From: Oscillatoriaceae cyanobacterium M7585_C2015_266
GTDB lineage: Bacteria; Cyanobacteriota; Cyanobacteriia; Cyanobacteriales; Oscillatoriaceae
DNA length: 64,000 nt
Assembly: GCA_015295835.1 (NCBI GenBank)
Contig: DVEG01000004.1
Coordinates: 1-64,000, forward strand
Direction: 5' to 3'
The notes under the pieces: generated by a model
Told to the model about the DNA's origin: nothing
Databases searched by the model: none
What the model saw: the letters and a program-made list of their open reading frames with translations, nothing else
Program-made: the position numbers and the translations under genes
In this document: one piece after another, positions 41,054 through 60,670 of the stretch
Layout: each line of letters begins with the position of its first letter
Numbering within the stretch: the first letter of the stretch is position 1

Positions 41054-41322
41054 CTAAGCGCACGAGAATGCGAGCCAGGGAATGCGCTGAACTGCAAAAC
41101 CGTATTTTTGCGTTTTAAGGAGAATAATTGCGCTTCCCAGCAAGAGTGAGCCTTGAAACTTGGTATTCCAAAAAGCCGCCAACGTATAGATAAGGAGAGT
41201 TTGAGCGATGCCGATGCTACTGTGAGCAAAGAAAATCCCCGGTAAGAAGTGCTGCGTCGCCTCCGCAACAATTCAATCATAATGCGTTGTGCTATTGCTA
41301 TTGTTTCCCGTAAATATTTCAT
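41054..41322 (-). pseudogene. Decayed ABC-2 type permease gene
   Basis: On the minus strand from ATG 41322 the frame reads MKYLRETIAIAQRIMIELLR and RRRRSTSY, the typical start of a cyanobacterial ABC-2 export permease. The sequence then shifts frame, and the +1-related frame continues with a coherent hydrophobic segment, GIFFAHSSIGIAQTLLIYTL followed by AAFWNTKFQGSLLLGSAII, until a stop at 41054. Intact permeases have about 120 more residues between RRRRS and TSY plus further helices afterwards. The gene therefore has an internal deletion, a frameshift and a truncated end. Its 5' end is divergent from the desaturase gene, 26 bases away. Confidence 0.65.
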
Positions 41323-41348
41323 CTAGTGAGAAGTTGATTGAGTATTTT

Positions 41349-43292
41349 ATGAGTGACTTATCGAAGTACGCGCAATCGCTACCCCTATCCCGACGTGCCC
41401 TATTAAAGATGTTTGGTGTTAGTGCTGTGGCGGGAGTTATAGGATACTCCCGATTTGTAAAGCCTCAGCCAACGGTTTTTCAAAAGGATACTTTAGATTT
41501 GCCGTTTTTTACGAGCCGCCCGTTAAAGGTTGTGGTGATTGGAGGGGGATTGGCAGGGCTAGCTTGTGCTTACGAACTCAGTCAACGGGGTTTTAAAGTA
41601 ACGCTGTTAGAACGCTCGCCCCAATTGGGGGGAAAAATAGCTAGTTGGCAGATTGAAGTAGGCGGTGAAACTTTTATGATGGAACATGGTTTCCACGGCT
41701 TTTTCCCCCAATATTATAATCTTAAAAGTATTGTTGCTGAGTTGGGCATTACGAAAAATTTTGTGGATTTAAAGTTCTACTCTCTGCTTTTCCGCGATAA
41801 CAAATATCAGCCAGAAGTATTTCGCCCCAGTCATTCGGCGTTTCCCTGGAATATCGTAGATTTAGCGCTCGCTTCTTCCAATCGTCTACGCTGGGGAATC
41901 AACCTTACCAACCCCGCCCACTGGCAAGTTTTCCGAGCCATTACCGGTTTTCACCCCCAAAAAACTTACCTGCGTCTCGATCATTTATCGGTTGCTGAAT
42001 GGGCGGCACAAGATTTTCCTCAAGGGCTATACGATTTATATTTCTTACCCTTTGCTAAATCCACTTTGAATGCCCCCGATATGCTTAGTGCTGGTGAATT
42101 AATGCAATTTTTCCATTTTTACTTTTTTGGTAATCCAGAGGGGCTGGCTTTTAATGGTACCCGGCAAGATATGGGTACGTCGTTGGTGCAGCCCATCGCT
42201 GAAGCAATAAAACGGGCGGGTGGCACCATTGTTACTGAGGCGGTTGTTAGTAATATTCACTGGCAAGATGGGCAAATTGATTCTCTCAGTTACTATCAGG
42301 GTGATGCGGGCAATTCGGTTCCTTTTTGGGTGAAGCGTAATTCCTTACTTTCTAAAGCGGGAGAAAAAGAATATTTCGGAGCAGGCGATTGCGTTTTTGT
42401 CGCTACATCTGGTGGCAAAGAAGCAATTTCTCTGACTTGCACCCACCAAAGTTGCACTCTTCAGCCGCAAACAAACGGCGAATTTCACTGCCCCTGTCAC
42501 GGTGCAATTTTTAACGCTGATGGTAAAGTTATAAAAGGACCTGCTAAACGGGATTTGCCTCGTTTCAAAGTGCTACAACGGAAGAAAGAAGAGCTGCAAT
42601 TGGTGGCGTCTGTTAAGCTACCGAAAGCAAAAAATATTCTCAAAGCAGATTACTATGTGATTGCTACCGATGTACCGGGAGTGCAACATCTTTTTACTTT
42701 GATGACGGGGGAAGTAAATAATCAAGTAAAAGAGGGAGTGGAAAAATTAGCGATCGCTGATCCCTTTGCCGTCGCTCGCTTCTGGTTTGATCGCGATTTT
42801 GAGTGGCAACATAGTTGGTTTACCTCTCTTTCTGGTTACAAACTTACTGACAGCATCACCCTTTACCACCGTATCCAAGAACAATTTATCGAGTGGAATC
42901 GAAAAACCGGCGGTAGTGTTGTCGAATTACACGCTTACTGCTATAAAGAAAAAGACTTCCCCACCCAGCAAGCTTTACTAGCTACTTTCGAGCAGGAATT
43001 GTACGAAATTGTGCCTGCACTCAAAGGCGCAAAGATGTTGCACCGGGAATTAGTCAATCAAAAGAATTTCTCAGGCTATCCCCCAGGTAGTTATGCCGAG
43101 CGCCCGGAAACTTGTTGTGGTGTTCCTAATTTAATTTTTGCCGGAGATTGGGTAAAAATGCCTTTTCCTTGCGGTTTAATGGAGCGCGCTGTCAGTAGTG
43201 GATTGCTGGCTGCAAATGCAATTCTACACCGGGAAGGATTACAGCGGAGAGTTCTTTTTTCTGTAAATCCACAAGGTTGGCTACAAATTTAA
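41349..43292 (+). CDS. cruE: FAD-dependent carotenoid desaturase with Rieske domain (CruE-like)
   Basis: This 647-residue protein starts with a twin-arginine signal (SRRALLKMFGVSAVAGVIGY from residue 14). The FAD-binding motif VVVIGGGLAGLACAYE of phytoene-desaturase-type amine oxidases follows. In the middle a Rieske [2Fe-2S] domain is inserted, with CTHQSC and CPCHGA ligands, and the C-terminal FAD motif is FAGDWVKMPFPCGLMERAV. This combination matches the CruE/CrtU beta-carotene desaturase/methyltransferase family that makes aromatic end rings. The adjacent Rieske oxygenase supports a role in synechoxanthin-type carotenoid synthesis. An upstream frame from 41289 adds 20 residues before the Tat motif and is not preferred. 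Confidence 0.7.
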   Translation: MSDLSKYAQSLPLSRRALLKMFGVSAVAGVIGYSRFVKPQPTVFQKDTLDLPFFTSRPLKVVVIGGGLAGLACAYELSQRGFKVTLLERSPQLGGKIASWQIEVGGETFMMEHGFHGFFPQYYNLKSIVAELGITKNFVDLKFYSLLFRDNKYQPEVFRPSHSAFPWNIVDLALASSNRLRWGINLTNPAHWQVFRAITGFHPQKTYLRLDHLSVAEWAAQDFPQGLYDLYFLPFAKSTLNAPDMLSAGELMQFFHFYFFGNPEGLAFNGTRQDMGTSLVQPIAEAIKRAGGTIVTEAVVSNIHWQDGQIDSLSYYQGDAGNSVPFWVKRNSLLSKAGEKEYFGAGDCVFVATSGGKEAISLTCTHQSCTLQPQTNGEFHCPCHGAIFNADGKVIKGPAKRDLPRFKVLQRKKEELQLVASVKLPKAKNILKADYYVIATDVPGVQHLFTLMTGEVNNQVKEGVEKLAIADPFAVARFWFDRDFEWQHSWFTSLSGYKLTDSITLYHRIQEQFIEWNRKTGGSVVELHAYCYKEKDFPTQQALLATFEQELYEIVPALKGAKMLHRELVNQKNFSGYPPGSYAERPETCCGVPNLIFAGDWVKMPFPCGLMERAVSSGLLAANAILHREGLQRRVLFSVNPQGWLQI

Positions 43293-43438: not shown

Positions 43439-44512
43439 ATGGAATCGGCATCTTTAAAAAATTCGCAGCCCCACATCCGCAAGTTAGGCATCAATCGTAA
43501 TCACTGGTATGTGGTGGCACGCAGCACCGAAGTGAAAAACCAACCCGTAGGCGTTATTCTTTGGAATCAAGCGATCGTTTTATTCCGTGATAGTAGCGGC
43601 ACTGTTTGTGCATTAGAAAATCGCTGCCCTCACCGTCAGGTAAAACTTAGTCATGGTTGCGTTATTGGGGATATTATACAATGTCAATATCATGGCTGGC
43701 AATTTAAGTCAAGTGGCGAGTGTGTAGGAGTGCCTTATTTAGGGAAAAACCAGAAATTGCCCACCTGTAAAATCCGCTCATATCCAGTAAAAGAATTAGA
43801 CGGTTTTATCTGGCTATTTCCGGGGAAACAAGCGCTCGCAGATACGAACCCTCCCCTAGGAGTTCCCGAATGGGATCACCTCAATTACATCGCTACCGTT
43901 TCCACTATCAACTGCAACGCCCACTATTCCTATTTAATCGAAAATCTTATGGATATGTACCACGGGCACTTACATCAAAATTGGCAAGCGTGGGCTAATC
44001 CAGAGCTGCAAGATATTAACGAAAATAACAATCGGGTAGACGCTCACTATCAAGCGCAGAGCTATTACCGAATTGACAAAATATGGTCAATTTCGCAACT
44101 ATTTTTCCCAGCACTGCGTCGCCTCCACCCTGAGCCATTAGACGTCAGCTATATTTACCCGCATTGGGTGTCTACTTTAGGCAAAGATTTTAAAATTTAC
44201 TGTCTACTTTGTCCAGTGAGCGAAACTGCTACCCGTGCCTATCTAGTTCATTTTACCTCATTAAATGCCTTTTGGCGTTTACATAAATTGCCTGTGTGGT
44301 TCCGCAAATTTATTAAAAATAGTTTATTTGGTTCTGCACAAAAATTGCTCGACGGTTTAGTTCGTCAAGATGTGCTTATGATTGAGGAAGAACAGCAGGC
44401 ATATTTACACAATCCAGAGCTGCGCAATTATGAATTAAATCGGGCATTGGTGAGTGTACAGCGGTTAATGAGGAGACAGGCTGAGCTAGATAAGGCGATA
44501 AAAAATAACTAA
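43439..44512 (+). CDS. Rieske [2Fe-2S] oxygenase (PaO/CruH-like)
   Basis: This 357-residue protein has an N-terminal Rieske domain with ligands Cys63, His65, Cys82 and His85 in NRCPHR and CQYHGW. The catalytic domain follows with the mononuclear iron motif in ENLMDMYHGHLHQNW (conserved Asn/Asp and His residues). The overall form is that of pheophorbide a oxygenase-like proteins. Its position directly after the CruE-like gene suggests oxidation of an aromatic carotenoid methyl group, as proposed for CruH in synechoxanthin synthesis. Chlorophyll breakdown enzymes of the same family are the alternative. No membrane helix is obvious at the C-terminus. Confidence 0.72.
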   Translation: MESASLKNSQPHIRKLGINRNHWYVVARSTEVKNQPVGVILWNQAIVLFRDSSGTVCALENRCPHRQVKLSHGCVIGDIIQCQYHGWQFKSSGECVGVPYLGKNQKLPTCKIRSYPVKELDGFIWLFPGKQALADTNPPLGVPEWDHLNYIATVSTINCNAHYSYLIENLMDMYHGHLHQNWQAWANPELQDINENNNRVDAHYQAQSYYRIDKIWSISQLFFPALRRLHPEPLDVSYIYPHWVSTLGKDFKIYCLLCPVSETATRAYLVHFTSLNAFWRLHKLPVWFRKFIKNSLFGSAQKLLDGLVRQDVLMIEEEQQAYLHNPELRNYELNRALVSVQRLMRRQAELDKAIKNN

Positions 44513-44528
44513 GTTGTTACAAAAATAT

Positions 44529-44547
44529 CCCCGGGGTTTACCCCGGG
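44529..44547 (-). terminator. Terminator between convergent genes
   Basis: CCCGGGG (44530-44536) pairs with CCCCGGG (44541-44547) around TTTA. On the minus strand the stem is followed by GATATTTTTG, so it mainly ends the linker-domain transcript, and it lies between convergent stop codons. Confidence 0.75.
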
Positions 44548-44558
44548 TTAAACAAATA

Positions 44559-45149
44559 TTAAGAACGTACCCGTCTAGAAGGCAACCAAGCAGGGCGGCA
44601 AATTCCACCGCTACAGTCGAGGTGTAGCTCGTGCCAGTAGAGAGTAGGAATTGCCCAGCCCCTTTGCCCCGCATATTCTTTTTCTAAAAAACTACTTTCT
44701 AGATAATCATTAGCTGATTCGTAGTGACGTTTACGCCAATAGGGAACCGTAAAACAACCAAATGCCTTGCGGTATTCTTCTGAGTCTATCATTTCTGAAA
44801 CCATTGCCCCGACTCCTCGACGCACCAGCAAATTATCATAAAAGCGAATTTCTGCTTCGTCGTGGGGGGCGCGCCCTAAAAAATGTTTTATCGCATTCTC
44901 GATAAATTTGACATTGGAGCTGCGCTCGTAAAATGATTGCAGATATAATGGAGTGACTGCTAGTCTTTTTAGAAAGTGTCGGATGCCGATTTTCCCTTTA
45001 ATAAATTCATTTTCTAAATTTGCTATCTGGCGACGTTCCGCTATATAGGGTACCCGCTCCAACACTTGACGGTAAATTTGCAGCAGGATTTGCTTGCGTT
45101 CTTCAGGTGAGGCATTATGATGAGTAGTAATGGGTTCTTTTAATAGCAT
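44559..45149 (-). CDS. Orphan phycobilisome linker-domain protein
   Basis: This 196-residue protein carries one phycobilisome linker (PBS_linker_poly) domain at about 20-150: QIYRQVLERVPYIAERRQ, NEFIKGKIGIRHFLKRLAVT, HFLGRAPHDEAEIRFYDN and GVGAMVSEMIDSEEYRKAFG, ending with the usual VPYWR. Ordinary rod-core linkers are longer, about 250 residues. After the domain is an unusual Cys-containing tail (HELHLDCSGGICRPAWLPSR). No cpc or apc genes are near. It follows a phycobiliprotein-like gene by 45 bases, so the two products may interact with each other rather than with the normal antenna. Confidence 0.82.
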   Translation of the reverse strand: MLLKEPITTHHNASPEERKQILLQIYRQVLERVPYIAERRQIANLENEFIKGKIGIRHFLKRLAVTPLYLQSFYERSSNVKFIENAIKHFLGRAPHDEAEIRFYDNLLVRRGVGAMVSEMIDSEEYRKAFGCFTVPYWRKRHYESANDYLESSFLEKEYAGQRGWAIPTLYWHELHLDCSGGICRPAWLPSRRVRS

Positions 45150-45194
45150 AGTTTTAGTCTTATTGGCGTTTCTAGCTGGTGGCTATAATATTTT

Positions 45195-45704
45195 CTAGTT
45201 ACTACTTGCTTTTTGAACGCTTGCCATCAATTTAGGTGGCAAGTCTAGGGTTTGCAAAATTATCTCGATATAGGGTTCTATCAACTGATAGGCAGGAGCT
45301 GGCAGGTTTTCGCTTAGAACTTCCTGCAAGCAGCGATATGCGGTTAAGCAAGTATTATTCTGGCGATAAGCGGTGAGAATATTTGCCTGCCAGAAAAATA
45401 AATTTTCTTTGAAAAATTTTTCGTCGTCTCTGAGTACTGATAGGGCAATGTAGCGTAGCACTTGCGCCATGTCATACTGGCATCTTTTGCCGTGCTTTTG
45501 CATTATTTCTGGTTCGAGAACTAAAAATTTTTTCAGCGCCAGCTGCACTAGCTTATCTGCTCTATCTCTTAGCAGGTTGTAGGTTTGCAGGCGATTCGAG
45601 AAGCTTTTTAAATATCGCTGCACTGGCTGCAGCTCTGTTGCGGTGAGATACCGCCCTTCGCTCTGATTGGCTAGCTCTTCCAATAGGGAATTAATACTAC
45701 GCAT
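45195..45704 (-). CDS. Phycobiliprotein-fold protein without bilin cysteine (1 of 3)
   Basis: This 169-residue protein matches the phycobilisome globin family: the N-terminal helix motif EGRYLTATELQPVQRYLKSF corresponds to ARYLSPGEL in allophycocyanin. At the bilin site, where phycobiliproteins have CLRD, this protein has VLRY (Val82-Tyr85), so neither the thioether Cys nor the bilin-contacting Asp is present. It should not carry a chromophore in the usual way. It lies upstream of the linker-domain gene and downstream of the GvpL/F-like gene. It resembles the phycobilisome-like members of the Synechocystis Pap cluster. Confidence 0.8.
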   Translation of the reverse strand: MRSINSLLEELANQSEGRYLTATELQPVQRYLKSFSNRLQTYNLLRDRADKLVQLALKKFLVLEPEIMQKHGKRCQYDMAQVLRYIALSVLRDDEKFFKENLFFWQANILTAYRQNNTCLTAYRCLQEVLSENLPAPAYQLIEPYIEIILQTLDLPPKLMASVQKASSN

Positions 45705-45887
45705 CTTAGCTAGTTTTAATTAACTCTATTCTCAGTTTGAGCGAAAAATTTTTCTTCTGCAAGGATTTGATGCAATTTGTAACATTCAGGTTTAAAGATG
45801 TTAAAATTTATAAAATAAGATGACTTAATCCGTAAAAATACTGTTAGTTGTGCAGGCAGGGCAAGCTGTTTTTTCTCAGAAATTGGT

Positions 45888-46601
45888 TTAAGAATTAATA
45901 GTTTGTGTAACAAAATGATAAGGAGGTAGGGGTTCTCCTAGGTAAAATTCCCAATGGGAACAGGTTTGCTGCCAATTTTGTACTTGCTGGGAAAGGAAGG
46001 GATCTTCTGGGCGTGAAGGGATGCGAGCGCGTATAAAGTTACCCAAAATATAAATTTTCTGAGTATTTCCCTGCGGAGTAATAAGGGCATTAGGATAATA
46101 CTGGGCAAGTTTTTGCTGTACAAAAAGCCACTGTTGTGCTTGCTCAGCTTGAAAATCCTGCTGAGTTTGGTAGCGCTGTTTCTTAGCGAGAAAATACTCT
46201 CTGCCTTTTGCAGAGGATGGAATGGTAGGTGTCGGTGCTTCCCTGGGTACACACTTTATACAATATTCAGCTTTATCGGTTAAACAGGCGAGTTGTTGTA
46301 AGTATTCTTCCTGGTGCTGTAGTAGGTGATTTTCTAGTGCTTCTGGTGATATGAAGCAGGTGCCGAAGCGTAAGGGTAATAGTGTTTGTTGTTTGAATGT
46401 TTCACAGATAATTCTATCATGGGATAAAACTGCTTGGATGAGGGCTTTTTCTTCTAGTTTTTCGAGTGCGGCTATGGTGAGTAGTGGCTCGACTAGCGCT
46501 AATAGGTTACCAACTGCGATCGCTTTTAATTCAAAAGCAATCCCATTGGCTGGCAATTCTAATTTTGTCTCTGTTTTTCTCATTATAGCATAGATGTACA
46601 T
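45888..46601 (-). CDS. GvpL/GvpF-family protein
   Basis: This 237-residue protein has the family beginning MYIYAIM, the central block VLSHDRIICETF followed by LLPLRFGTCF, the segment HLLQHQEEYLQQLACLTDKAEYC, and an ending PPYHFVT. GvpF and GvpL are accessory proteins of gas vesicles that help nucleate or chaperone the shell protein GvpA. No gvpA, gvpC or gvpN gene exists in the window, and the surrounding genes are phycobilisome-like and kinase genes. It may have been recruited to another assembly process. It is 58 bases downstream of the MazG-like gene. Confidence 0.8.
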   Translation of the reverse strand: MYIYAIMRKTETKLELPANGIAFELKAIAVGNLLALVEPLLTIAALEKLEEKALIQAVLSHDRIICETFKQQTLLPLRFGTCFISPEALENHLLQHQEEYLQQLACLTDKAEYCIKCVPREAPTPTIPSSAKGREYFLAKKQRYQTQQDFQAEQAQQWLFVQQKLAQYYPNALITPQGNTQKIYILGNFIRARIPSRPEDPFLSQQVQNWQQTCSHWEFYLGEPLPPYHFVTQTINS

Positions 46602-46659
46602 TTTTCTTTCTTGTTTTTTCTTATATTCTCAAAAAATCATAACTATTTTTATTATATAT

Positions 46660-48042
46660 TCAAGGAATAAACTCAAGAGCGAGTCTGAGTTGAATCGAGG
46701 CGGGCTGCCAATCTCCCTCGCAAGTAAGCCACTCTATATTGGTACCTTTGATAAAATGTTCTATTTCTGGTATTATTGATATAATCTGTCGTTTCAGCTT
46801 TTTCAAGAGGGTGTGGGCTGGTATTGCTTCTTGTAATAGGCGAATTGATGAGGATTGCACGATCGCAGTCGGAGCAATTATCTCAATATTTTTAGACATA
46901 TTTTTATATACTTTTTCTCCGCTGCTTAAATCCCAATTTAAATTTAATTCTTTTGCTTCTAATCTGAGAATATTTTTACAGCGCAGGGTGCCGATTTTCC
47001 AATTTTGTTGCTGTTGTAAAACCTTTGCTTCTACGCCGCCGGTTAGTTGCATTATTTCATATGAACTGCTGACAATCTGCCACAACATTCTCTGCATTAT
47101 TTCTTGCCATTGCCATTGTTTTTTTTGCTGTTCGGCCTGTATGTCTGCTAGACTGCACGCTGCTGCTATTATTTGGTTAATTTTCTTATTGGCAGCATTT
47201 TTTGTAACTATTAATTTTTCATAAACTAAACTTTGATAGTTTTTTTCTAAAAATTCTGAATCATTAAATATGATGTAAGTTTTTTCTTGAAATTCTGTAT
47301 TTGCAACTGGGCTAATTTTATTATTTTTTATATCTATAAATTCAAAAGCAAGTGTTATTTTTACGGAGGCCTTTTTCCAATTGCTACATGGTTTAAGTAT
47401 TTCTACGTATGTGGTTTCTAGAAAGATGCTAATTTCTGGGCTGGCGGCGAGAATTTGTTCGCGCAACTGCTGTATATACTGTTTAGCTGTGATTGGTTCA
47501 AATTTCGAAAATATCTGAATAGTTGCTTCTTCTGGCAAGGGTTTTTTTAAAGGCTGTAGGGTGGCAATATCAATTGATAAGCGCTCGTCTCCTGTATCAA
47601 TTTCTAAAATAACTGCTAGCCGTAGTGTGCCGCTTTTTGCTTCTGTTTGCGGCAGACAGCATCGGGCTTTTACTCCTGTGAGCAGTTGCATGATTTCTTG
47701 AGAGCTTTTGACTAAATACCAGAGCAGTTTTGGAATTAAATCTTCGATTAATATATATTGAGATTTTTTGATTTTTTTTGTGCTGTTTATTTCTATATTA
47801 TCGTTTTGCCAAGCATCTAAAACTTCGCAGGCTTCTTCGGCAACATAAGGGGCTAAATTTTCTGGAGTTGGTGGTAAATGTTGGTGCCATCCCCCATGCG
47901 GCGAGCGTATTTCTGTGATAATTGCTATCAACCGCTGCATAGCTTCTATAGTGCGTTTGCTTACTGAAAATTGGGTAGTTGTGATGGGGTTGATTATTGC
48001 TGGCTGATTCAGTCTAAGGATAGTTTTACTGATGACATTCAT
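46660..48042 (-). CDS. Protein with MazG-like N-terminus and duplicated C-terminal halves
   Basis: This 460-residue protein has an N-terminal segment (about 35-80) resembling MazG nucleotide pyrophosphohydrolases: IAIITEIRSPHGGWHQHLPP then YVAEEACEVLDAW, which keeps the EExxE...D metal pattern. The conserved CPWD of MazG is replaced by GWHQH. The rest consists of two homologous halves (about 98-240 and 312-460), aligned by LLWYLVKSSQEIMQLLTGVK and MLWQIVSSSYEIMQLTGGVE. No other domain is recognised. It overlaps the 3' end of the kinase gene by 17 bases, so the two are translationally linked. Confidence 0.7.
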   Translation of the reverse strand: MNVISKTILRLNQPAIINPITTTQFSVSKRTIEAMQRLIAIITEIRSPHGGWHQHLPPTPENLAPYVAEEACEVLDAWQNDNIEINSTKKIKKSQYILIEDLIPKLLWYLVKSSQEIMQLLTGVKARCCLPQTEAKSGTLRLAVILEIDTGDERLSIDIATLQPLKKPLPEEATIQIFSKFEPITAKQYIQQLREQILAASPEISIFLETTYVEILKPCSNWKKASVKITLAFEFIDIKNNKISPVANTEFQEKTYIIFNDSEFLEKNYQSLVYEKLIVTKNAANKKINQIIAAACSLADIQAEQQKKQWQWQEIMQRMLWQIVSSSYEIMQLTGGVEAKVLQQQQNWKIGTLRCKNILRLEAKELNLNWDLSSGEKVYKNMSKNIEIIAPTAIVQSSSIRLLQEAIPAHTLLKKLKRQIISIIPEIEHFIKGTNIEWLTCEGDWQPASIQLRLALEFIP

Positions 48043-49852
48043 TCTCTTTTTCTGTTTTTAATTTTATGCAGTATAAATAGCTCTGCTCGTTTTGACAAGT
48101 AGCGATCGCTATATTATTTTTTTTCCACCCAGTAACTGCCAGGATATTTTTTGGCACTTTTAGTATTTGCGCTCGCCCTTGGTTGTCATAAAAAATTATC
48201 TTACCTTGCCGTGAAGCAACAAAGTACTCATCTCCAAAAACCCCCCAGCACTCTGGCTCTATTTCTAAAGGAATCCGTGTAATTTGCCAAGGTTTTAACT
48301 GTATGCGCAAAGCCGCAGTTGAATCAGAGTTAATCCCGAATAGAGTATAATCTTCATTACTTAACACTAAAAAGCGATGATTCTTGTCATGCCGGAATTG
48401 CACTGGCAAATGGGAGACAATTATTTCTTGCCCCCGGCGTGTATATATTTTAAAACGGCTTTCATGGTTTGTGGGTATATTCCAAATAGCCAGTAAGTGG
48501 CGCTCGTCTAGGAAAATCAATTCTGGAAGCGTCGCTTCTGAAAAGCGACAATGATATACACGGGGTGCGGCTGTAGTATTTTGTAATCCTGACAAGGAAT
48601 AGAAATAGAGATTTCCTATACTAGCGACGGCTAACCACTTACTTTGTGGAGAGACGGTAGCAGTAAATGGTTGCGAGATATGCAAAAGCTTATGTATCTG
48701 ATACCGACTAATTCCTATCCAGTAAATTTGCTCCTGCGTCAATACCAGACAACCCTGTGGGCGCGCCTGTAAGGTTAGTACTTTTTCTGATTTTTCTAAT
48801 AATCTTACTCTGCCAAGACATTTGTGAGGCGCTTTCCAGACTATTATTTGATTTTCTGCTACTCCGTAAAGTGTCTCCTCACAGGAGGCAAGCTGATTTA
48901 AGGGATATGGTACTATTTTGCGGTAGGATTCAGGTAAGGGCTTGAGACGAATTGGCTTAGCAGATGGTTTCCAAGGTAGACGGCGCTTGCTATATTGTTT
49001 CACTAAGGGAGCTTCTGCTGCCTGTCTGATAGCAGCTGCCATTTCTGCAGCACTGCCAAATCGCCGCGCTGGCAGTTTTTCCAGAGACTTTTGCCCTATT
49101 GCTCGTAGTGGCTCTGGTATGTCTTCTGGCAGTAGTTTCCGCTCATTCATGTGCGCCCACATTAATTTGCTGGGAATTCCTTTAAAGGGGCGCTCGCCTA
49201 CTATCATTTCGTATAAAATAATTCCTACTGCATATATGTCAGAGGCTGGGGAATATAGCCCATAAAATTGCTCGGGAGCCATGTATCCCGGCGAACCCAT
49301 TATTGTATCTGCTTTGGAGCTTGAAGTTTTTTTGCTTTGTAGAAATTCTAGAGCAATTCCAAAGTCAGACAGTCGGGGTATCCAGCCGTCACTCCCTAAT
49401 GTCAGGAGGATATTTTCTGGTTTGATATCGCAGTGAACTATTCCTCTCTGGTGTAAAGATTCCAAACCTGCTAAAATACCTATGATTAATTTTAAGGCTT
49501 CTGCTAGTCTTAAGGAACCGTTTTGCTCTAACAGGTTACGCAGGGTTCCGCCTTCGCAGTAGTCCATTACTAGGTACCGACTGGTGTCGGTATGTTCTAA
49601 AGTATAACAGGTAACGATGTTGGGGTGCTCTTGGATAATTGCTGAGCCGAGTTCTCGCAGAAATTTTTTTGTGGGTGCTTTGTCGTGACTAAGTTCTTTG
49701 AGAGCGACGATTTCGCCTGTTTGGCGATTGACTGCGCAAAAAACTCTGCCAAATTGGCCAATGCCAATTAGGGCTAAAATCCGGTATTTGGACTTTGGCG
49801 CGGTGCTCTGACGCGATCGCAAGAGATATTTCTCTGATTCTTTTTGGTTCAT
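48026..49852 (-). CDS. SpkG-like Ser/Thr protein kinase
   Basis: This 608-residue protein has an N-terminal Hanks-type kinase (about 22-285). All catalytic elements are present: GIGQFGRVF, the Lys in IVALKELS, HCDIKPENIL, SDFGIALEF and GSPGYMAPEQ. The C-terminal about 300 residues form a beta-rich, propeller-like region without WD40 signatures and without a membrane helix. Its neighbourhood with V4R, ferredoxin and phycobilisome-like genes is that of SpkG (Slr0152) in the Synechocystis slr0144-slr0152 cluster, so it is probably the SpkG counterpart. It leads a minus-strand operon and is divergent from the ferredoxin gene. Confidence 0.88.
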   Translation of the reverse strand: MNQKESEKYLLRSRQSTAPKSKYRILALIGIGQFGRVFCAVNRQTGEIVALKELSHDKAPTKKFLRELGSAIIQEHPNIVTCYTLEHTDTSRYLVMDYCEGGTLRNLLEQNGSLRLAEALKLIIGILAGLESLHQRGIVHCDIKPENILLTLGSDGWIPRLSDFGIALEFLQSKKTSSSKADTIMGSPGYMAPEQFYGLYSPASDIYAVGIILYEMIVGERPFKGIPSKLMWAHMNERKLLPEDIPEPLRAIGQKSLEKLPARRFGSAAEMAAAIRQAAEAPLVKQYSKRRLPWKPSAKPIRLKPLPESYRKIVPYPLNQLASCEETLYGVAENQIIVWKAPHKCLGRVRLLEKSEKVLTLQARPQGCLVLTQEQIYWIGISRYQIHKLLHISQPFTATVSPQSKWLAVASIGNLYFYSLSGLQNTTAAPRVYHCRFSEATLPELIFLDERHLLAIWNIPTNHESRFKIYTRRGQEIIVSHLPVQFRHDKNHRFLVLSNEDYTLFGINSDSTAALRIQLKPWQITRIPLEIEPECWGVFGDEYFVASRQGKIIFYDNQGRAQILKVPKNILAVTGWKKNNIAIATCQNEQSYLYCIKLKTEKENECHQ

Positions 49853-50114
49853 ATTTTTTATAAGAGGATAAGTGTCTCACTTTGGTTATATATAAAAGTA
49901 GCGATCGCCAGCCTTCCGCCCGCTTTTTCTCTACCTAAATTATCAAGATTCTTGTTTTCTTTGTGTCGTTAATTTTTTTAAAATCTATTAATAGCGACCA
50001 GCAGGCTATTAACCACCAGTGACTTTATCTAGCGAGAAACAAATACCTGATATAAATATAAAGTACACAGGTTACCTGTTAGAATAAGATTGTCAACAGA
50101 GCAATAACAAAAAA

Positions 50115-50597
50115 ATGGTTAAAATCATTAGACTAGACCCTATTGCCTGGGAGGCAGCAGTTAAAACCAATACTAATATCCTATCTGCCCTAATCGCCAA
50201 TGAACTGCATGTCTTAAAAGAATGCGGGGGTAGGGGTATGTGTGCTACCTGTCACGTTTATATCAAACAGGGCATGAATGCTCTCTCTCCAATTAGTCGG
50301 CGAGAGGAAAGAACTTTAGCTGTGATTACTACTGCCAAGTCTAATTCTCGCTTAGCATGTCAGGCGAGGGTGCTGGATGAAGGGGTGGTGGTAGAGCTGC
50401 CGGCAGGGATGTACATTAACGCTATTCAAGATATAGAAGCGCTAATAGGTCGTCGTGCGGAACAAGATTTACTGCATCCAATTACTGGCCAAGTTGTGGT
50501 AGAAGCTGGAAAGTTGATTACTCGCTCTGTGATTAAGCAGCTTGAAGAAACTCGCTTTCAAGTCGGACAGTATCTGGCTCAAACTACAGATGCTTGA
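50115..50597 (+). CDS. [2Fe-2S] ferredoxin
   Basis: This 160-residue protein has an N-terminal plant/bacterial-type ferredoxin domain. The cluster ligands are visible as ECGGRGMCATCH (C-x5-C-x2-C) and the fourth Cys in RLACQARV. The C-terminal 55 residues are an extension (LEQ-like region ending FQVGQYLAQTTDA) with no known fold. It is divergent from the SpkG-like gene and 59 bases upstream of a phycobiliprotein-fold gene on the same strand. The Pap cluster of Synechocystis also contains ferredoxin genes, so a redox role in photosystem assembly is likely. Confidence 0.88.
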   Translation: MVKIIRLDPIAWEAAVKTNTNILSALIANELHVLKECGGRGMCATCHVYIKQGMNALSPISRREERTLAVITTAKSNSRLACQARVLDEGVVVELPAGMYINAIQDIEALIGRRAEQDLLHPITGQVVVEAGKLITRSVIKQLEETRFQVGQYLAQTTDA

Positions 50598-50656
50598 GGC
50601 GGATAAGCTATACAATTTCTTTTAATAACTTCAATTTATAATCAAAAGTTAAGTAA

Positions 50657-51139
50657 ATGTTAAGTCAACTAGCCCACCTGAGCGCCAAAGCTGATGGTCG
50701 CTATGCCACGGCTTACGAGCTGCAATTTTTAAAAAACTATTTTAAGTCTTTTAATTTACGTTTAAGTGCTTACGAAAAAATTAAAGCGTCTGAAGCGGAA
50801 ATTATCCGGAAAGTACAAGCTAAAATTCTATCAATTAATCCTAATTTATTTTGTAATGGTTCTGAAGACGCTACTTTAAAATGGCGGTTGGATACGGTGA
50901 GAGTTTTGCGGCAAACAGCGGCTGCTTTGCTCATCGATGATGCTGAGCGATTGCGCAACCGATTTATTGTCTGGTTTAAAACAGTATTGCGGGCGTTAAA
51001 TGTGGAAGAAAGCGCCGACATTACCTATAAATTAATGCTAGAAACTGTATCAGAGTATTTGACACCTGAGGAAGCGGCGCTATTTCGTCCGCTTTGGGAA
51101 CTCAACCGCCTTGATATTGAAAAAAATAATTCAAATTAA
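50657..51139 (+). CDS. Phycobiliprotein-fold protein without bilin cysteine (2 of 3)
   Basis: This 160-residue protein shows the phycobilisome globin pattern ADGRYATAYELQFLKNYFKS and TPEEAALFRPLWE near the end. The bilin site reads VLRQ (Val83-Gln86) in place of CLRD. It shares a plus-strand operon with the ferredoxin. Its stop codon is directly adjacent to the stop of the convergent V4R gene, with no base between, so the two operons are packed end to end. Confidence 0.78.
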   Translation: MLSQLAHLSAKADGRYATAYELQFLKNYFKSFNLRLSAYEKIKASEAEIIRKVQAKILSINPNLFCNGSEDATLKWRLDTVRVLRQTAAALLIDDAERLRNRFIVWFKTVLRALNVEESADITYKLMLETVSEYLTPEEAALFRPLWELNRLDIEKNNSN

Positions 51140-51805
51140 CTATTTACTACATAATTTTTCCATAATACTCTGATGGTCTTGTTTTTCGGCAACCCATGAT
51201 TCTACAGGTTTGAGGCGCTCATTCAATCCGATTATAAACCGATTGCAATCAGCTCCTAAAGATTCACAGGTAGTTTGTACACAGCCGAGCTCTCGCCCTG
51301 TGAGCTGGCTGAAAAAAGCACTCAATATTCCGGCTTCTAAAAAGCATGAGGGGCACTTACCTTTTGGAGCTTTGGCGGCGAAGGGAGAATTAGTGATTTT
51401 TATTTCTAAAAAACCATGCTGGTAATAAGTATGATCTAGTTCAAAGATCCCCCATCCTAGACATTTCCAGCACTGTTGTAAACATTGGATAAATTCTATC
51501 ATCTCCATTTCGGCTACAGGCTGGCCATAGTATTCGCTCACTTCTTCGCAAAAACGGATGTAGAAATTTTTTCCCCACCAGCGACCGCAGTTAAATAATA
51601 CTAAGCCTGCAGCTGAGCCGGTTTCTTGTTCAAGTCCGGTATAAATTGCTTCAATTAAAGTATCTGGCAAAGCCAGAAAGCGATCGCCCCGGCGATTTTC
51701 TAACAAACCGAGTTCTAAATCTCCTCGAATATAAGAACCAGGGGCAAAGTAATTACCGGGTAGGCGTTTAGAATCTAGCAGTTCGGCAATTGAAATCTTG
51801 CTCAT
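51140..51805 (-). CDS. V4R-domain protein (first)
   Basis: This 221-residue protein ends in a V4R (4-vinyl reductase) domain, recognised by GILSAFFSQLTGRELGCVQ and the cysteine pattern CVQTTCESLGADC followed by RFIIG. V4R domains bind small hydrophobic ligands and occur in the bacteriochlorophyll protein BchJ and in Slr0144/Slr0147 of the Synechocystis Pap operon, needed for efficient photosystem II assembly. A tetrapyrrole ligand is a reasonable guess. It is the last gene of the four-gene minus-strand operon 51140-53324, 17 bases after the preceding stop. Confidence 0.85.
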   Translation of the reverse strand: MSKISIAELLDSKRLPGNYFAPGSYIRGDLELGLLENRRGDRFLALPDTLIEAIYTGLEQETGSAAGLVLFNCGRWWGKNFYIRFCEEVSEYYGQPVAEMEMIEFIQCLQQCWKCLGWGIFELDHTYYQHGFLEIKITNSPFAAKAPKGKCPSCFLEAGILSAFFSQLTGRELGCVQTTCESLGADCNRFIIGLNERLKPVESWVAEKQDHQSIMEKLCSK

Positions 51806-51822
51806 TTTTCCCTATCAATTTT

Positions 51823-52290
51823 TTAACTATTTGCTTCCAAGAGAGTAGAGCGTGCTTGTTCTAAAAAAGGTTGCAATAGTGCTAAAGCCTGCGGAGAGAG
51901 TAATTCTTTTAGGCGCTCCTGTAGGAATTCGTAAACTTTCGCCTCAATTTCTGTAGTTTGGTGCGTTTGCACCAGTCCTTTTAGCCAGTCTAGTAGGTGT
52001 CGTTGTAAGTATTCTCGGTCATTTAATAGCATAGCCATTGCGCAGTAGCGTAATACCATCAACCAGTGTTTTAATACTTTTTCTAATATTTCCTTTTCAG
52101 TTTGGGGAAAAGCTATTACTAGCTTATCTGCTACGGGTTGAAAAATTTCTATTTCTTTATCGCGCAAAGATTCGTATACTTTTAAGCTTTGGGCGATTAA
52201 TATAGCGTACTGCTTGAAAGATTCTATTTCTTCTGGTTTCAAGTAGCGGTTTTCTGCCTCTTCTATTAAGGCTTCTATTTTGGGATGCAT
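51823..52290 (-). CDS. Phycobiliprotein-fold protein without bilin cysteine (3 of 3)
   Basis: This 155-residue protein has the family start EAENRYLKPEEIESFKQYA. The bilin position reads VLRY (Val79-Tyr82), as in the protein at 45195. A Cys follows Tyr directly (RYCAMAM), but this is not the canonical attachment residue. The protein sits between the two V4R genes of the operon, with gaps of 33 and 17 bases. Confidence 0.78.
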   Translation of the reverse strand: MHPKIEALIEEAENRYLKPEEIESFKQYAILIAQSLKVYESLRDKEIEIFQPVADKLVIAFPQTEKEILEKVLKHWLMVLRYCAMAMLLNDREYLQRHLLDWLKGLVQTHQTTEIEAKVYEFLQERLKELLSPQALALLQPFLEQARSTLLEANS

Positions 52291-52323
52291 AATTATCAGT
52301 TTTTAATTTTCCATTTACTATTT

Positions 52324-52596
52324 TTAAAATAAATCCATAAAATCTGCTAGGGTTGTTTCTTTCGGTTCTTGGAGTGCCTCCAATGGTGGGGTGGAGGGTG
52401 GTTTGGGTAGAGAGCCTACGGTGGGTTTTCCTTCCCAAGGAAGCGCCTGAAAGAATTTTGCTACTGATACAGTTAAAGGTATAGGTTGACTGGAGGCGGG
52501 TAGCCAGTCGGGGAGTGTCAGAGTTTGACCAAACCAGTTGCACTGGTTGAAAAATTCTGCAACGGAGAGTTTTAACCAAGAAGTATCGGTGTTCAT
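52324..52596 (-). CDS. 90-residue protein with repeated SVAEFF-W-G motif
   Basis: This small soluble protein contains two copies of a short motif: WLKLSVAEFFNQCNWFGQ near the start and LTVSVAKFFQALPWEGK in the middle. A third, partial copy at the end reads TLADFMDLF. The linker regions are Pro-rich. Its start codon overlaps the stop of the preceding V4R gene (ATGA), so it is translationally coupled. The repeated short motifs suggest a flexible adaptor that binds several copies of one partner, for example the V4R or phycobiliprotein-fold proteins. It takes the place of slr0145-type small genes in the Pap cluster; homology is not proven. Confidence 0.78.
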   Translation of the reverse strand: MNTDTSWLKLSVAEFFNQCNWFGQTLTLPDWLPASSQPIPLTVSVAKFFQALPWEGKPTVGSLPKPPSTPPLEALQEPKETTLADFMDLF

Positions 52597-53324
52597 TTTA
52601 GTCGCTCCCCATCTTGCAGACGTTTTTGGATATCGCGGGCTGTGGCACCTTCATTGAGCCAGAAGGCGGCGGCATCGATGCGATCTTTGTTTCCCAGTAG
52701 AAATTTGCAGTAGGTTTCTCCCATTGAATAGCATTGGATTTCGATGCAGCTGAGAGGTTTTTTGACTAGAGATGTGAAGAAGCCAGAAAATAATCCAGCA
52801 TAAAGGAAACAGACTGGTTTGCCGACGTCGCCTAGGGTGCGAGCTACGGCGGAATCGAAGAGATTGATAAAGATAAATCCTTGCTTGCGATCGCTCATAT
52901 CTACTTCCCAGCGTCCCCATCCTTGAGCTGTAAATGGCCACCACCAAGTTTCTAATAGAAACATTAAATTAGAATTGTATATATCGCGTTCAAATTCTTT
53001 TTCAAACCATTCTCTAAAAATGATCGCGTCTTTGCTTCCCCATTGACAGCCGATTGTGTACATTATCACTGCTGAAGCGTTGCCTACTTCTTCTTCTAAT
53101 CCTTCTTGCAGCCCGATGATAAAATCTTCGGCAGCGAATATATTACGGTTCTCGTTCCAGTCGGAAATTGTACCAATTTCTGGTTGAAACTGAAAAAAAT
53201 CTTCAAATCGATAGTGGTTGTGTTTTTTAGGGTGCTTTTTTTTCAGTAAGTGGGTTTGGCCTGCTTTCTGGTTTGCAGGTGCAGCAGTTGTGATAGCTGA
53301 TTCCCTGTTGCTTGCGATCGCCAT
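52593..53324 (-). CDS. V4R-domain protein (second)
   Basis: This 243-residue protein has a polar N-terminal 30 residues and a C-terminal V4R domain with AGLFSGFFTSLVKKPLSCIE and the cysteines of CIEIQCYSMGETYCKF. It is related to the V4R protein at 51140 and, by position, to Slr0147/Slr0144. As first gene of the minus-strand operon it is divergent from the caspase-like gene across 238 bases. A strong TCTCC-containing upstream stretch (GGAGAG on the minus strand, about 8 bases before ATG) gives a good ribosome site. Confidence 0.86.
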   Translation of the reverse strand: MAIASNRESAITTAAPANQKAGQTHLLKKKHPKKHNHYRFEDFFQFQPEIGTISDWNENRNIFAAEDFIIGLQEGLEEEVGNASAVIMYTIGCQWGSKDAIIFREWFEKEFERDIYNSNLMFLLETWWWPFTAQGWGRWEVDMSDRKQGFIFINLFDSAVARTLGDVGKPVCFLYAGLFSGFFTSLVKKPLSCIEIQCYSMGETYCKFLLGNKDRIDAAAFWLNEGATARDIQKRLQDGERLK

Positions 53325-53562: not shown

Positions 53563-55329
53563 ATGGTAGGAAATCAGGCTTGCATCGCTATAGGCATCAA
53601 TCAATATCAGTTTTTCCAACCCCTATCTTATGCCCAACAAGACGCGCAAGCGCTACAAAATTTCCTGGTGGGTGAAGTAGGATTGCCGCCGGAGCGATGC
53701 CTACTGTTAACAGACAGCTCGCCGTCAGTGGGAGGGCACTCAACCTATCCAAATCGGGAAACAATAGAAGAATGGGTAAAGAAATTCTGCCAGAGACTAG
53801 GAGCGGGGGATATACTCTGGCTATTTTGGTGTGGTTATGGGGTAAGGGAAAATGGGGAAGAATACCTGATGCCCCAGGAAGGGAATCCGAAAGATGTAGC
53901 GGCTTCTGGAATAGCGGCGCGCTCGCTACTAAAAATTCTCAAATCTGCGCAAGAGGGGGTTAATCCACCTCTAAAACTACTACTGTTGTTGGACATAAAC
54001 CGTAGCGGGGAAATAGGAACAGAAATAGCAGCGCTCGCTAAAAAACTAAAAATTCCCACCATTCTTTCCTGCCTTCCAGATCAATTTTCAAGAGAAAGCG
54101 GGGTTTTGCGTCACGGCTTATTTACAGCAGCTCTATTAGAATGCCTGCGCTACAGTCGGTGTGTGACTATAAAAGACTTGATTTGCTATTTGAGCCAGCG
54201 CTTGCCACAATTGAGTGAACATCTCTGGCTGCCACCGCAAGAGCCTCTGGTTGCTGTTAACCCTCCGGAAAATATGCAGCAATTGATTTGGCAGCCGAAA
54301 GAAAATGGGGCAATTGTAAATCGCGAGTTATTGGTCCTCAGTAGCACAGGCAGGGCTAATGGTAATGCGGTTTATAATTATGATAACTATAAAAACGGTA
54401 GTAGTAGCAGAGGACAAAAGAATGGCCAACTGATAAAGGGGAAAAATGAAATAAGCAGTCAATCTCTAATCCCGTTATCTGTTGATACGGATAAGGGTAA
54501 AGATTGGCAAACGAAAGCAGCTATAAAACAACAATACTTGTTAATGTGGAGTGGCGTAGCGGTGGTGATGTTTGTGCTGGGGGCGCTCGCTAGTCGCTGG
54601 CTCTTCAGTAGTAACTATTCTCAAGATTTCCAACCAGTAACTCCAGTAACTCCAGAAGTGGCGCAATCATCACCCACTGCCAGAGTTCAGTCAGAATCAG
54701 AAGCAGTGGAAAAGCAGCAGCAGCAGTCTAGTCAATTGCTCCTCGACAAGGCGACTCTGGCAATTCTACCTTTACAAGCGTCTCAGTTTGCTTCTGCGAT
54801 CGCGATTGCTCGTCAAATTTCTGCAAACGATCCTCTCTATCCACAAGCGCAGGAAAATATTGATCGCTGGGGCAGTATAATTCTGGATATTGCTAAGGCT
54901 AGAGCTAAACAGGGGAATTTCGCAGGGGCGCTCGCTGCTGCTCAATTGGTGCCAAAAGATCGGTTGGTTTTGGCAGAGAAAGCTAAACAACTTATTGCAC
55001 AGTGGCAGAAAGAAGCCGCTCTCCAACAAGCTAATCAGAATTTAATACAAGCTGCTTCTCTGTTGGCACGTAGAAAACAGCTCACTTCTTATGTGCAAGC
55101 AATCGCCTCTCTTAGCTCTATTAAACCTGGGCAACCGAAGTATACTGATGCTCAGCAGCTAATTGCCCAGTGGAGCCAGGCTATCCTTGATATTGCTAAG
55201 GCTAGGGCTGCTCGTCGTCAGTTTAATGCGGCGATTGCTGCTGCAGAAATGGTGCCTGCTTTTGCGCCGGTTTATGCAGAGGCTGAGCAACTTATCGCCC
55301 AGTGGCAGCAGCGGCGAAGGCGTTATTGA
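53563..55329 (+). CDS. Pseudo-orthocaspase with membrane helix and helical repeats
   Basis: This 588-residue protein has a strong ribosome site (GGGGGGAGG). Residues 1-215 form a caspase p20-like domain starting ACIAIGINQYQF. The catalytic His of SGHG is Tyr92 (WCGYGVRENGEEYLMP) and the catalytic Cys of DxCxSG is Asn146 (DINRSGE), so the peptidase is inactive by sequence. A membrane helix lies at about 329-348 (GVAVVMFVLGALASRWLF). After it come three TPR-like helical repeats (AIAIARQISANDPLYPQAQ, GALAAAQLVPKDRLVLAEKA, AIAAAEMVPAFAPVYAEAEQ). The position next to the V4R operon suggests a role with that system; published work on bacterial pseudo-orthocaspases has also suggested a link to photosynthesis. 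Confidence 0.88.
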   Translation: MVGNQACIAIGINQYQFFQPLSYAQQDAQALQNFLVGEVGLPPERCLLLTDSSPSVGGHSTYPNRETIEEWVKKFCQRLGAGDILWLFWCGYGVRENGEEYLMPQEGNPKDVAASGIAARSLLKILKSAQEGVNPPLKLLLLLDINRSGEIGTEIAALAKKLKIPTILSCLPDQFSRESGVLRHGLFTAALLECLRYSRCVTIKDLICYLSQRLPQLSEHLWLPPQEPLVAVNPPENMQQLIWQPKENGAIVNRELLVLSSTGRANGNAVYNYDNYKNGSSSRGQKNGQLIKGKNEISSQSLIPLSVDTDKGKDWQTKAAIKQQYLLMWSGVAVVMFVLGALASRWLFSSNYSQDFQPVTPVTPEVAQSSPTARVQSESEAVEKQQQQSSQLLLDKATLAILPLQASQFASAIAIARQISANDPLYPQAQENIDRWGSIILDIAKARAKQGNFAGALAAAQLVPKDRLVLAEKAKQLIAQWQKEAALQQANQNLIQAASLLARRKQLTSYVQAIASLSSIKPGQPKYTDAQQLIAQWSQAILDIAKARAARRQFNAAIAAAEMVPAFAPVYAEAEQLIAQWQQRRRRY

Positions 55330-55338
55330 AGCGAGCGC

Positions 55339-57813
55339 CTATTTTTTCGCTTTCACGGGAATTTCGATCCAAAACTCTGTGCCTTTCCCTGGTTGAGAGA
55401 AGCACTTTAAATTCCCGCCGTGTTTGTCAACGACAATTTGATAGCTTATCGCTAATCCCAACCCTGTTCCTTTGCCTACTGGTTTTGTAGTAAAGAATGG
55501 CTCGAACAGTCGTTTTTGTACTTCTTCTGGAATTCCCGGACCGTTATCGGCGATAATTATGATCACATATTGCTCATTATTTTTTAATTTTCCAGTTCCT
55601 ATCTTAGTGCGAATCAGAATTTGACTGGGTGCTGCAAGAAGTTCTTCTAGCGATCGCTGTTTATCCCTCTCTTCCAAAGCGTCAATCGCATTTGCTAGCA
55701 CATTCATAAACACCTGATTCATTTGCCCCGCAAAACATTCCACCAGCGGCAAATCCCCATATTCTTTGATCAATTGAATACCCGGAGTATCTGATTTTAC
55801 TTTCAGCCGATTGCTTAAAATTAACAGAGTGCTGTCGATGCCTTCGTGAATATTGACTAACTTTTTTTCTGCTTCATCCAGCCGCGCAAAGTTCCGCAGT
55901 GACAGCACCAAATCACGAATCCTATCTACCCCCACCTTCATTGATTTTAGCAGTTTGGGCATATCTTCCAGTAAAAACTCCAGCTCAATATCTTCGATTA
56001 CTTTTTGAATTTCCAACACCGGCTGAGGGTAGTGCTGGGCGTATAGATTTACGAGTTGAATCAAATCTTGACTATATTTATCTGCATAGGATATATTCCC
56101 ATAAATAAAGTTTACCGGATTGTTAATTTCATGAGCTAATCCTGCAACTAATTGACCAAGAGATGACATCTTTTCAGCATGAACCAGTTGAGTTTGAGTT
56201 CGCTTAAGTTCCTGCAATGCTGTTTGCAATTGTGCCGCTCTTTCTCGTTCTCTTTTTTCCGATTCTATCAGTGCCGCATTTAATTTTTCCAGTTCTTCTG
56301 CTTTCCGCAACACTATCTTAATTATTGCGTTTTTCAGTTCTTTTGCCGTCTCAATTTCGCACGTTTTCCACGGCAAAGATTTTCCCCTTACTGTCTCTTT
56401 CCACAATTCAAATGATTTTCTTGGGTTTAGACGTTCTCTCTCTTCTTCACCTTTTATCTCTTTTGGATTTCCCGCCCAATTTACTGTTTTTATTACTTCC
56501 GTGCGAAACCAAATAACGTAATTATTTTGGTTTTTAGAAATACAAATAGCTAATATCCCACTGGCTATTTCTTTATATTCTTCTGCCGGTTTGTATATTT
56601 TTGTTAAACAATCTGTAGAAAATACTTCTTCGTTGCTGCTGTTTAACCATTCTATTAATTTGTTTATTTCTTCTGCCGGTGGTACTTTGCCTATTGTTCT
56701 AATTTTACCTCCTAGTTGGGCGAATGCTCCTGTCGCATTTGCTAAATCTAATACGTTGGGATTGTATTTAAATAATCCTTCAATATAATTTTTCTCATTG
56801 CTCATGTATTCGATTATTTTAGCCAGATTGCTTTTTAATTGTAATTGATACTCATAATCTTCACTTTCTTCTTTTGATGATAGCTCTAGCGACATCACTT
56901 GCCCTAAAAACTCACAGGCTTTGCGAACTTCATAAGCTACATATCTAGGCGAGTAATGATGGCAGGCTATCAGCCCCCACAACTTATCTCCTTTCATTAA
57001 AGAAATAGACATTGAAGCGCTGACGCCCATGTTTTGTAAGTATTCTATATGACAGGGCGAAATACTTCTCAGTACGCTATAGGTTAAATCTATCGGTTCG
57101 TAAGTTATGGGATTAATAGCTGGGATAATTTTTGCTGGTTTATAATTGACGTCGGCAATCAATCTTAGCCAATTTAAACAATACAGTCGTCTTGCTTCTG
57201 GTGGAATATCTGAGGATGGGTAGTGTAATCCTTCATAAGAAGGTAAATTTTCTAATTTATCTTCCGCAATTACACATCCGTGCCCTTGTTCGTCGAATTT
57301 ATAAACCATTACTCTGTCAAATCCGCTAATTTTTCTCACTTCTGAAGCGAGCGCTTGACAGAGGCTTTTAAAATCTGGTGCACTTTGTATTTTGTTGGCT
57401 GCTGTTCTCACCAAATTATAAAAATTTATAAATTCTATTTGTTGTTTCGATGGCTCTAATTCTAAAATTAATCCTCCGTTTGTTCTATGTATTATAGCAT
57501 CAAATTTTATCGTTTTATAAGGCAAGTAAAATGTTAACTTTAATAGTTTCGTATCATCATCATTTAATTTTTGATTGTAGATAACTGCTCTCAATTGTTC
57601 TATTTGATTATTATCGAGCAGCGTAATCAAACTTCTATCGATAAAATAACTACTTGGAATTCCTAATATTTGGGCTGTATTATCGCTCACCTGTAAAATT
57701 TTTAATTCCGGCTCTTTCAATACGAATAACAAACCGTGAGGCTGAATGCAACCAGTTAGGTGTATAGGTTCTTCCTCGTTGTAAGTACTTTCTAGTTCTT
57801 TTTTTGCTACCAT
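55339..57813 (-). CDS. Cph1-type phytochrome histidine kinase
   Basis: This 824-residue protein has the complete photosensory module. The PAS domain contains GCIQPHGLL. The GAF domain contains [15 protein letters not shown] and [13 protein letters not shown]. The bilin Cys254-His in [13 protein letters not shown] is at the GAF position used by Cph1 and plant phytochromes. The PHY domain has the tongue motif [11 protein letters not shown] histidine kinase follows with [23 protein letters not shown] and GTGLGLAI. A second Cys in the PAS motif (TGCIQPHG) is not at the bacteriophytochrome position. A red/far-red photoreceptor is expected. It is convergent with the caspase-like gene and has no receiver gene nearby. 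Confidence 0.94.
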
Positions 57814-58116
57814 TTTTCGTTTTTCTGCTGTATTGGTAAAAAAGGTTCCTGACCTGAGGCACTCCCTTTTCCAAAATATATGCAGTCATGCTTAAAGCGA
57901 CTGCGAGTGCATCTTTTTTCTAAAAATGCACGGAAATCGAGGTTGGTTTTAGACAGCGACTCATTTCCGTACCTGCACAACCATTGACAGACTCCCAAAA
58001 GCTCTTTTTAGGTATTATCCATCAAGAAATGCCTTTTGTGAGTTGATATATAAAAATTTTATTAAATTTTTCTAAAATTTGACAAAAGTTAACTAAAAGG
58101 GAAATAAAAAATCTCG
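57814..58116. other. 303-base gap upstream of the phytochrome gene
   Basis: The gap separates two minus-strand sensor genes and should hold the phytochrome promoter. Short antisense frames are present but overlap the true start and look spurious. I see no terminator with a clear stem and T-run. Confidence 0.5.
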
Positions 58117-60534: not shown

Positions 60535-60670
60535 AATTTATGTTCCTGTTAAAAATATAATAATGGCCTAAGCACATTATATCACTTTTGATCAGATAAA
60601 ACAAGCATTAAATTATTAATTTTTTATAAATTTTGCCGTACCAGTTAACGATACGACATTTCCGAAAGCT

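Follow-up and report, generated by a model that had tools for sequence, protein, structure and literature searches.

The closest described counterpart of the gene cluster analysed here is the slr0144-slr0152 (Pap) operon of Synechocystis sp. PCC 6803, which was reportedly described by Wegener in 2008. The cluster itself lies at positions 44559-53324 of the window, by which we mean the whole 64,000-nt stretch of contig DVEG01000004.1 that was analysed and to which all coordinates given without a locus label refer. To our knowledge, there is no molecular-level explanation of how gas-vesicle formation is matched to the light or pigment state of the cell. In the literature searched, no report was found that links V4R, BBAG or SpkG genes to gas vesicles. 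The slr0144-slr0149 genes represent the cyanobacterial bilin-globin (BBAG) cluster, which is variable and often lost, and whose functions were stated to be not yet known; bilin binding was found for representative BBAG-1 and BBAG-3 proteins (Rockwell et al. 2023, PMC10151467). In Synechocystis, the only organism for which a complex is reported, the proteins Slr0144-Slr0149 interact physically (PMC9880817), and the genes have been implicated in the assembly of photosystems II and I (PSII, PSI; PMC4853703, PMC9145668). The role of cyanobacterial V4R proteins is described as open (PMC13174344). A second known system, the cyanobacterial gas-vesicle operon, has the composition gvpA-C-N-J-K-F-G-V-W (PMC7204071).

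The first-pass annotation of the window proposed an enlarged and rearranged photosystem assembly system. The reading that we prefer, and to which we assign a probability of roughly 0.5, is that a known V4R/BBAG cluster with its SpkG-type kinase has been extended by a unit of the genes SPK, MZK, gvpW, PBSa and LNK, which would couple it to gas vesicles.

Results

Eleven genes were assigned to the interval from the list of open reading frames (ORFs) and from Pfam matches. They are arranged in three blocks, with five genes on the minus, two on the plus and four on the minus strand. The three facing operons of the first-pass annotation were thereby recovered, as were the genes that it had named (two V4R genes, a 2Fe-2S ferredoxin, phycobilisome-like genes, a kinase and GvpL/F-like, MazG-like and linker genes). 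Seven genes have counterparts in the Pap operon and the BBAG cluster. The second minus-strand block consists, in order of transcription, of the V4R protein A gene V4RA (52593..53324; PF02830, 1e-20; slr0144 position), the 90-aa small conserved protein S90 (52324..52596; without Pfam match; slr0145 position), the phycobilisome-family globin PBSc, which is devoid of the bilin cysteine (51823..52290; PF00502, 3e-11; slr0146 position), and the V4R protein B gene V4RB (51140..51805; PF02830, 1.5e-17; slr0147 position). The plus-strand block holds the 2Fe-2S ferredoxin-like gene FES (50115..50597; PF00111, 6e-9; slr0148 position) and the phycobilisome-family globin PBSb (50657..51139; PF00502, 4e-17; slr0149 position), and the first gene of the remaining minus-strand block is the SpkG-type Ser/Thr kinase SPK (608 aa, 48026..49852; PF00069, 2e-52). 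With V4R-A and V4R-B, a 2Fe-2S protein and phycobiliprotein-like globins, the locus thus has the composition of a slr0144-slr0149-type cluster. The proposed match to the Pap component list therefore holds for the V4R proteins, the globins, the 2Fe-2S protein and the SpkG-type kinase. It does not extend to the PetF-type ferredoxin (slr0150) and the TPR protein (slr0151), neither of which was found between 44559 and 53324, nor to gene orientation, since the Pap operon is co-directional.

To place this core, 386 sampled cyanobacterial genomes were surveyed and gene neighbourhoods (loci labelled L) were fetched from them. V4RA is present in 56 of the 386 genomes, in whose neighbourhoods the set V4RA-S90-PBSc-V4RB, with FES and PBSb close by, recurs in many orders; an S90 homologue is found in 77/80 named V4R loci, and most families have an SpkG-type kinase linked to the core. 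The C-terminal domain of SPK has homologues in 106 ORFs of the fetched loci (these loci overlap, so that the number does not correspond to 106 genomes), including kinases of loci with a Synechocystis-like gene order (e.g. L054, 275 bits). Since this domain is common to the V4R-linked kinases of most genomes, SPK belongs to the core and is not among the additions. Hence V4RA, S90, PBSc, V4RB, FES, PBSb and SPK constitute, as judged from gene content and neighbourhood, the already known slr0144-slr0149/SpkG cluster. Variants of the core were also seen: five genomes of one family (f25; L040, L041, L047, L051, L053) possess an additional V4RA cluster, which contains two Cys-bearing globins but lacks a match to V4RB, and in one genome (G123; L007, L196) a V4RA-S90-PBSc-V4RB part and an MZK-SPK-FES-PBSb part lie 1.7 Mb apart on one contig.

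What the window has beyond the Pap operon and the BBAG cluster is a Cys-bearing globin (PBSa), its linker (LNK), gvpW and the gene MZK. The first-pass annotation had listed the GvpL/F-like, MazG-like and linker genes as additions, a list to which the phycobilisome-like gene at 45195-45704 (PBSa) has to be added. The GvpL/F-family gene GVP (237 aa, 45888..46601, minus strand; PF06386, 9e-31) ties the locus to gas vesicles. PF06386 and PF00741 occur in exactly the same 55 of the 386 genomes, which are the gas-vesicle genomes of the survey, and in a phylogenetic tree GvpF is split with a support of 100 from a clade that unites canonical GvpW with all GVPs of the block, which identifies GVP as the gas-vesicle protein GvpW. 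The gvp operon of the same genome, located on another contig (C23), contains gvpA, a C-like gene, gvpN, gvpJ, gvpK, gvpF, gvpG and a gvpV-like gene, while gvpW is absent there. As the window GVP and the gvpF of C23 are the only PF06386 genes of the genome, GVP is its sole gvpW and completes its gvp set. Unlike in the usual gvp operon, this gvpW sits at a V4R/kinase locus and is paired with MZK. Planktothrix-type genomes possess two gvpW genes, one in or near the gvp operon and one in an SPK-MZK block (L247 3543-4253, L096 381-1070), and gvpW is also found outside the operon in other V4R-bearing gas-vesicle genomes.

The order of transcription in the five-gene block is SPK, MZK, GVP, PBSa, LNK (from 49852 down to 44559). 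MZK (46660..48042) overlaps the SPK stop by 17 bp and the subsequent intergenic gaps measure 58, 183 and 45 bp. A terminator-like GC-rich hairpin (CCCGGGGTAAACCCCGGG, 44530..44547, minus strand) with a T-rich tail is situated 12 bp past the LNK stop. Owing to the SPK/MZK overlap, the short gaps and this hairpin, the five genes are likely to be transcribed as a single unit that ends at the hairpin.

All eleven genes are kept in order and orientation in Oscillatoria sp. PCC 10802 (L091/L116), in O. princeps RMCB-10 (L092/L117) and in a third genus of the same family (L093), despite low BLAST identities of 27-33% for MZK and 40-47% for GVP; in Prado101 the contig stops within MZK. Outside the family, SPK-MZK-GVP are consecutive in four Planktothrix-type genomes, where SPK and MZK overlap by a few bp, and in Arthrospira sp. 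PCC 9108. The same joined layout in two other genera of the family, along with the partial layouts of Planktothrix and Arthrospira, bears out the expectation that homologues of the added genes repeatedly adjoin the core, which favours a single conserved locus and an arrangement that is more than chance. MZK is directly followed by GVP in 8/13 MZK-bearing genomes from seven families, and LNK directly follows PBSa in 15 of the 16 genomes with PBSa. In P. rubescens PCC 7821 and a second genome of the same genus-level group, PBSa-LNK lies away from SPK-MZK-GVP. The four additions are thus two conserved pairs, MZK-GVP and PBSa-LNK, at whose loci no consistently conserved neighbour other than V4R-cluster genes was observed. 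In two Thermostichales-like genomes (L052 8389-10239, L256 11710-13394), V4RA lies divergently beside gvpA with gvpN and gvpJ behind it. This adjacency is an independent physical link between the V4R core and gas-vesicle genes.

The distribution of the additions was evaluated across the survey, with PBSa being counted at ≥40% identity. V4R and gas-vesicle genes occur together in 22/386 genomes. MZK is present in 13 genomes and PBSa in 16, and all of these (13/13 and 16/16) carry both V4R and gas-vesicle genes; neither MZK nor PBSa is found in the 33 gas-vesicle genomes without V4R. Given the presence of V4R, hypergeometric P values, all of which ignore phylogeny, amount to 2.6e-7 for MZK and 1.8e-9 for PBSa at the genome level, to 5e-6 for each at the genus level, and to 4e-4 (MZK) and 1e-4 (PBSa) at the family level. 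A tree of V4RA, V4RB and PBSc yields four well-supported independent gas-vesicle contrasts (seven in total), at which MZK, PBSa and LNK change in the same direction or not at all, with no case of an opposite change.

A test case provided by nature is a sister genus from the same family, represented by three gas-vesicle-free genomes from three species, one of them labelled Microcoleus vaginatus WJT46-NPBG5. In these genomes the V4R core is retained together with SPK and with PBSa (76-77% identity), and neither MZK nor GVP lies between SPK and PBSa. In all three, LNK is a pseudogene with in-frame stops beside an intact PBSa (L252 16378-17100, L253 3712-4514, L254 3713-4515). MZK, GvpW and LNK therefore go with gas vesicles, while PBSa is not strictly dependent on them.

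The globin PBSa (169 aa, 45195..45704, minus strand; PF00502, 2e-19) is BBAG-like and shows Cys-x-Tyr-Asp at the putative bilin-attachment site. The cysteine is invariant in all PBSa sequences, within Cys-x-(Tyr/Arg/Gly)-Asp, and PBSa orthologues show Cys-x-Tyr-Asp. The slr0149-type globin PBSb, in contrast to its counterpart in the Pap/BBAG cluster, has Trp in place of the bilin Cys (motif KWRLD). This Trp is found in all 15 scoreable PBSa-bearing genomes, and 29/37 PBSa-free genomes have Cys (counts ignore phylogeny). Because PBSb has exchanged Cys for Trp in genomes in which PBSa keeps its Cys, the pattern reads as if PBSa had taken over the chromophore role of the slr0149-type globin. LNK (196 aa, 44559..45149, minus strand) carries the phycobilisome linker domain PF00427 (8e-37), so that LNK and PBSa resemble phycobilisome rod and rod-core linkers with their phycobiliproteins both in their domains (PF00427 and PF00502) and in the adjacency of linker and globin genes. 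Unlike in the phycobilisome, whose full gene set is present separately in this genome, LNK forms a clade of its own apart from the linker domains of CpcC, CpcG and ApcE (SH-aLRT 98, for a short alignment with long branches), and PBSa scores far below the equivalog cut-offs for the antenna phycobiliproteins allophycocyanin (ApcA/B) and phycoerythrin (CpeA/B).

MZK had been described as a MazG-like duplicated protein. The duplication was confirmed, whereas the MazG-like part is confined to about 55 residues (~30-84) that look like the beginning of MazG, with no counterpart of the remaining enzyme. The remainder is a duplicated, different alpha/beta domain with a weak match to the KGK domain (4e-6). 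A function as a MazG nucleoside triphosphate pyrophosphohydrolase was rejected, as only the N-terminal helix region matches and no complete domain with both metal-binding motifs is present. A relationship to GvpV was likewise discarded, given that the MZK profile was unmatched in 20 gvp-related loci and that gvpV encodes about 105 aa. AlphaFold 2 models gave a mean pLDDT (predicted local distance difference test) of 77 both for the whole protein and for the second repeat alone.

Discussion

In the preferred reading, a complex of V4R-A, V4R-B, the 2Fe-2S protein and globin would sense a tetrapyrrole, redox or light-derived state. In this scheme, PBSa would carry a bilin at its Cys-x-Tyr-Asp motif, a role that the slr0149-type globin may have given up in PBSa-bearing genomes, and LNK would organise PBSa in the way that linkers organise phycobiliproteins in the phycobilisome. 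The SpkG-type kinase could relay the sensed state by phosphorylation to MZK and GvpW, which would act jointly in gas-vesicle assembly. Control would thus run from the pigment machinery to the gas vesicles, the state of the former setting the formation of the latter and with it buoyancy. A more specific version, in which PBSa-LNK serves as a miniature phycobilisome-like sensor instead of an antenna and signals the light or bilin state to MZK/GvpW by way of the V4R complex and SpkG-type kinase, is put forward tentatively, and we regard it as rather doubtful.

Several observations weigh against a coupling to gas vesicles. Five genomes with both V4R and gas vesicles lack MZK as well as PBSa, and the phylogenetic contrasts are too few to reach significance in a sign test. 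A strict rule by which PBSa implies gas vesicles had to be abandoned in view of the three gas-vesicle-free genomes that keep PBSa. No relatives of the MZK models were detected in the PDB (best Z scores of 4.5 for the whole protein and 2.6 for a single domain), a result which is no proof of a new fold and which leaves the role of MZK a guess. Moreover, PBSa-LNK and MZK-GVP stand apart from the V4R core in most families.

The last point is also what one would expect if gvpW and MZK had merely been placed behind a kinase promoter that answers to the same light or nutrient state, with the two protein sets never interacting. In line with such a shared operon, Planktothrix-type genomes hold their second gvpW inside the gvp operon. 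Pure co-expression does not, however, predict that MZK and PBSa should be missing from the 33 V4R-less gas-vesicle genomes of the sample. Co-expression without contact is thus a serious rival, possible if somewhat unlikely.

We consider it improbable that all genes aid the assembly or repair of PSI and PSII, with the GvpW-like and linker-like proteins recruited as chaperones or scaffolds. The core does match slr0144-slr0149, for which such a function in Synechocystis has been put forward (PMC4853703; PMC9145668), and the additions adjoin it in several genera. Yet all genomes concerned have photosystems, and since GVP is a GvpW (the only one of its genome), MZK is confined to gas-vesicle genomes in the survey, and a gas-vesicle-free genus with an intact core and PBSa lacks MZK and GVP and has a decayed LNK, the additions follow buoyancy and not photosystems. 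The larger assembly system proposed in the first-pass annotation is therefore not upheld, and slr0144-type loci should not all be taken as devoted to photosystem assembly only. More improbable still is a rearrangement that took place a single time in the family and has been inherited ever since, so that the co-occurrence would mirror phylogeny: few independent contrasts remain after phylogenetic correction, but this explanation is already weakened by the recurrence of SPK-MZK-GVP in another family (Planktothrix, Arthrospira) and by the retention of both pairs in about ten families, although rearrangement has been heavy and identities are low.

Since it unites gvpW and a partner restricted to gas-vesicle genomes with a bilin globin, a linker, a kinase and V4R proteins, the locus makes both BBAG/V4R function and gas-vesicle control testable. 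If the sensor version were correct, V4R-bearing cyanobacteria would possess a dedicated pathway from light to flotation, and BBAG proteins would gain a function. Among the carriers, Planktothrix, Arthrospira and Oscillatoria are blooming or farmed organisms.

The surroundings of the locus show further features. Next to V4RA, a plus-strand gene (53563-55329; without Pfam match) encodes a protein with an N-terminus that appears caspase-like by eye, a hydrophobic segment and repeats; its homologue lies divergently beside V4RA in 28/80 named loci (Microcoleus, Planktothrix, Oscillatoria, Tychonema). It is followed on the minus strand by three consecutive histidine kinases (55339-63403), the first being a phytochrome (PAS_2-GAF-PHY) and the third having a PHY match; phytochrome-like kinases near the V4R core are also seen in family members and in Laspinema. 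On the other side, a plus-strand gene for a protein of 1628 aa with at least 14 WD40 repeats (35984-40870) precedes an amine-oxidase/desaturase-like gene, also on the plus strand, with a Rieske domain inserted mid-protein (41289-43292), after which comes the gene of a VanA-like Rieske oxygenase (43439-44512).

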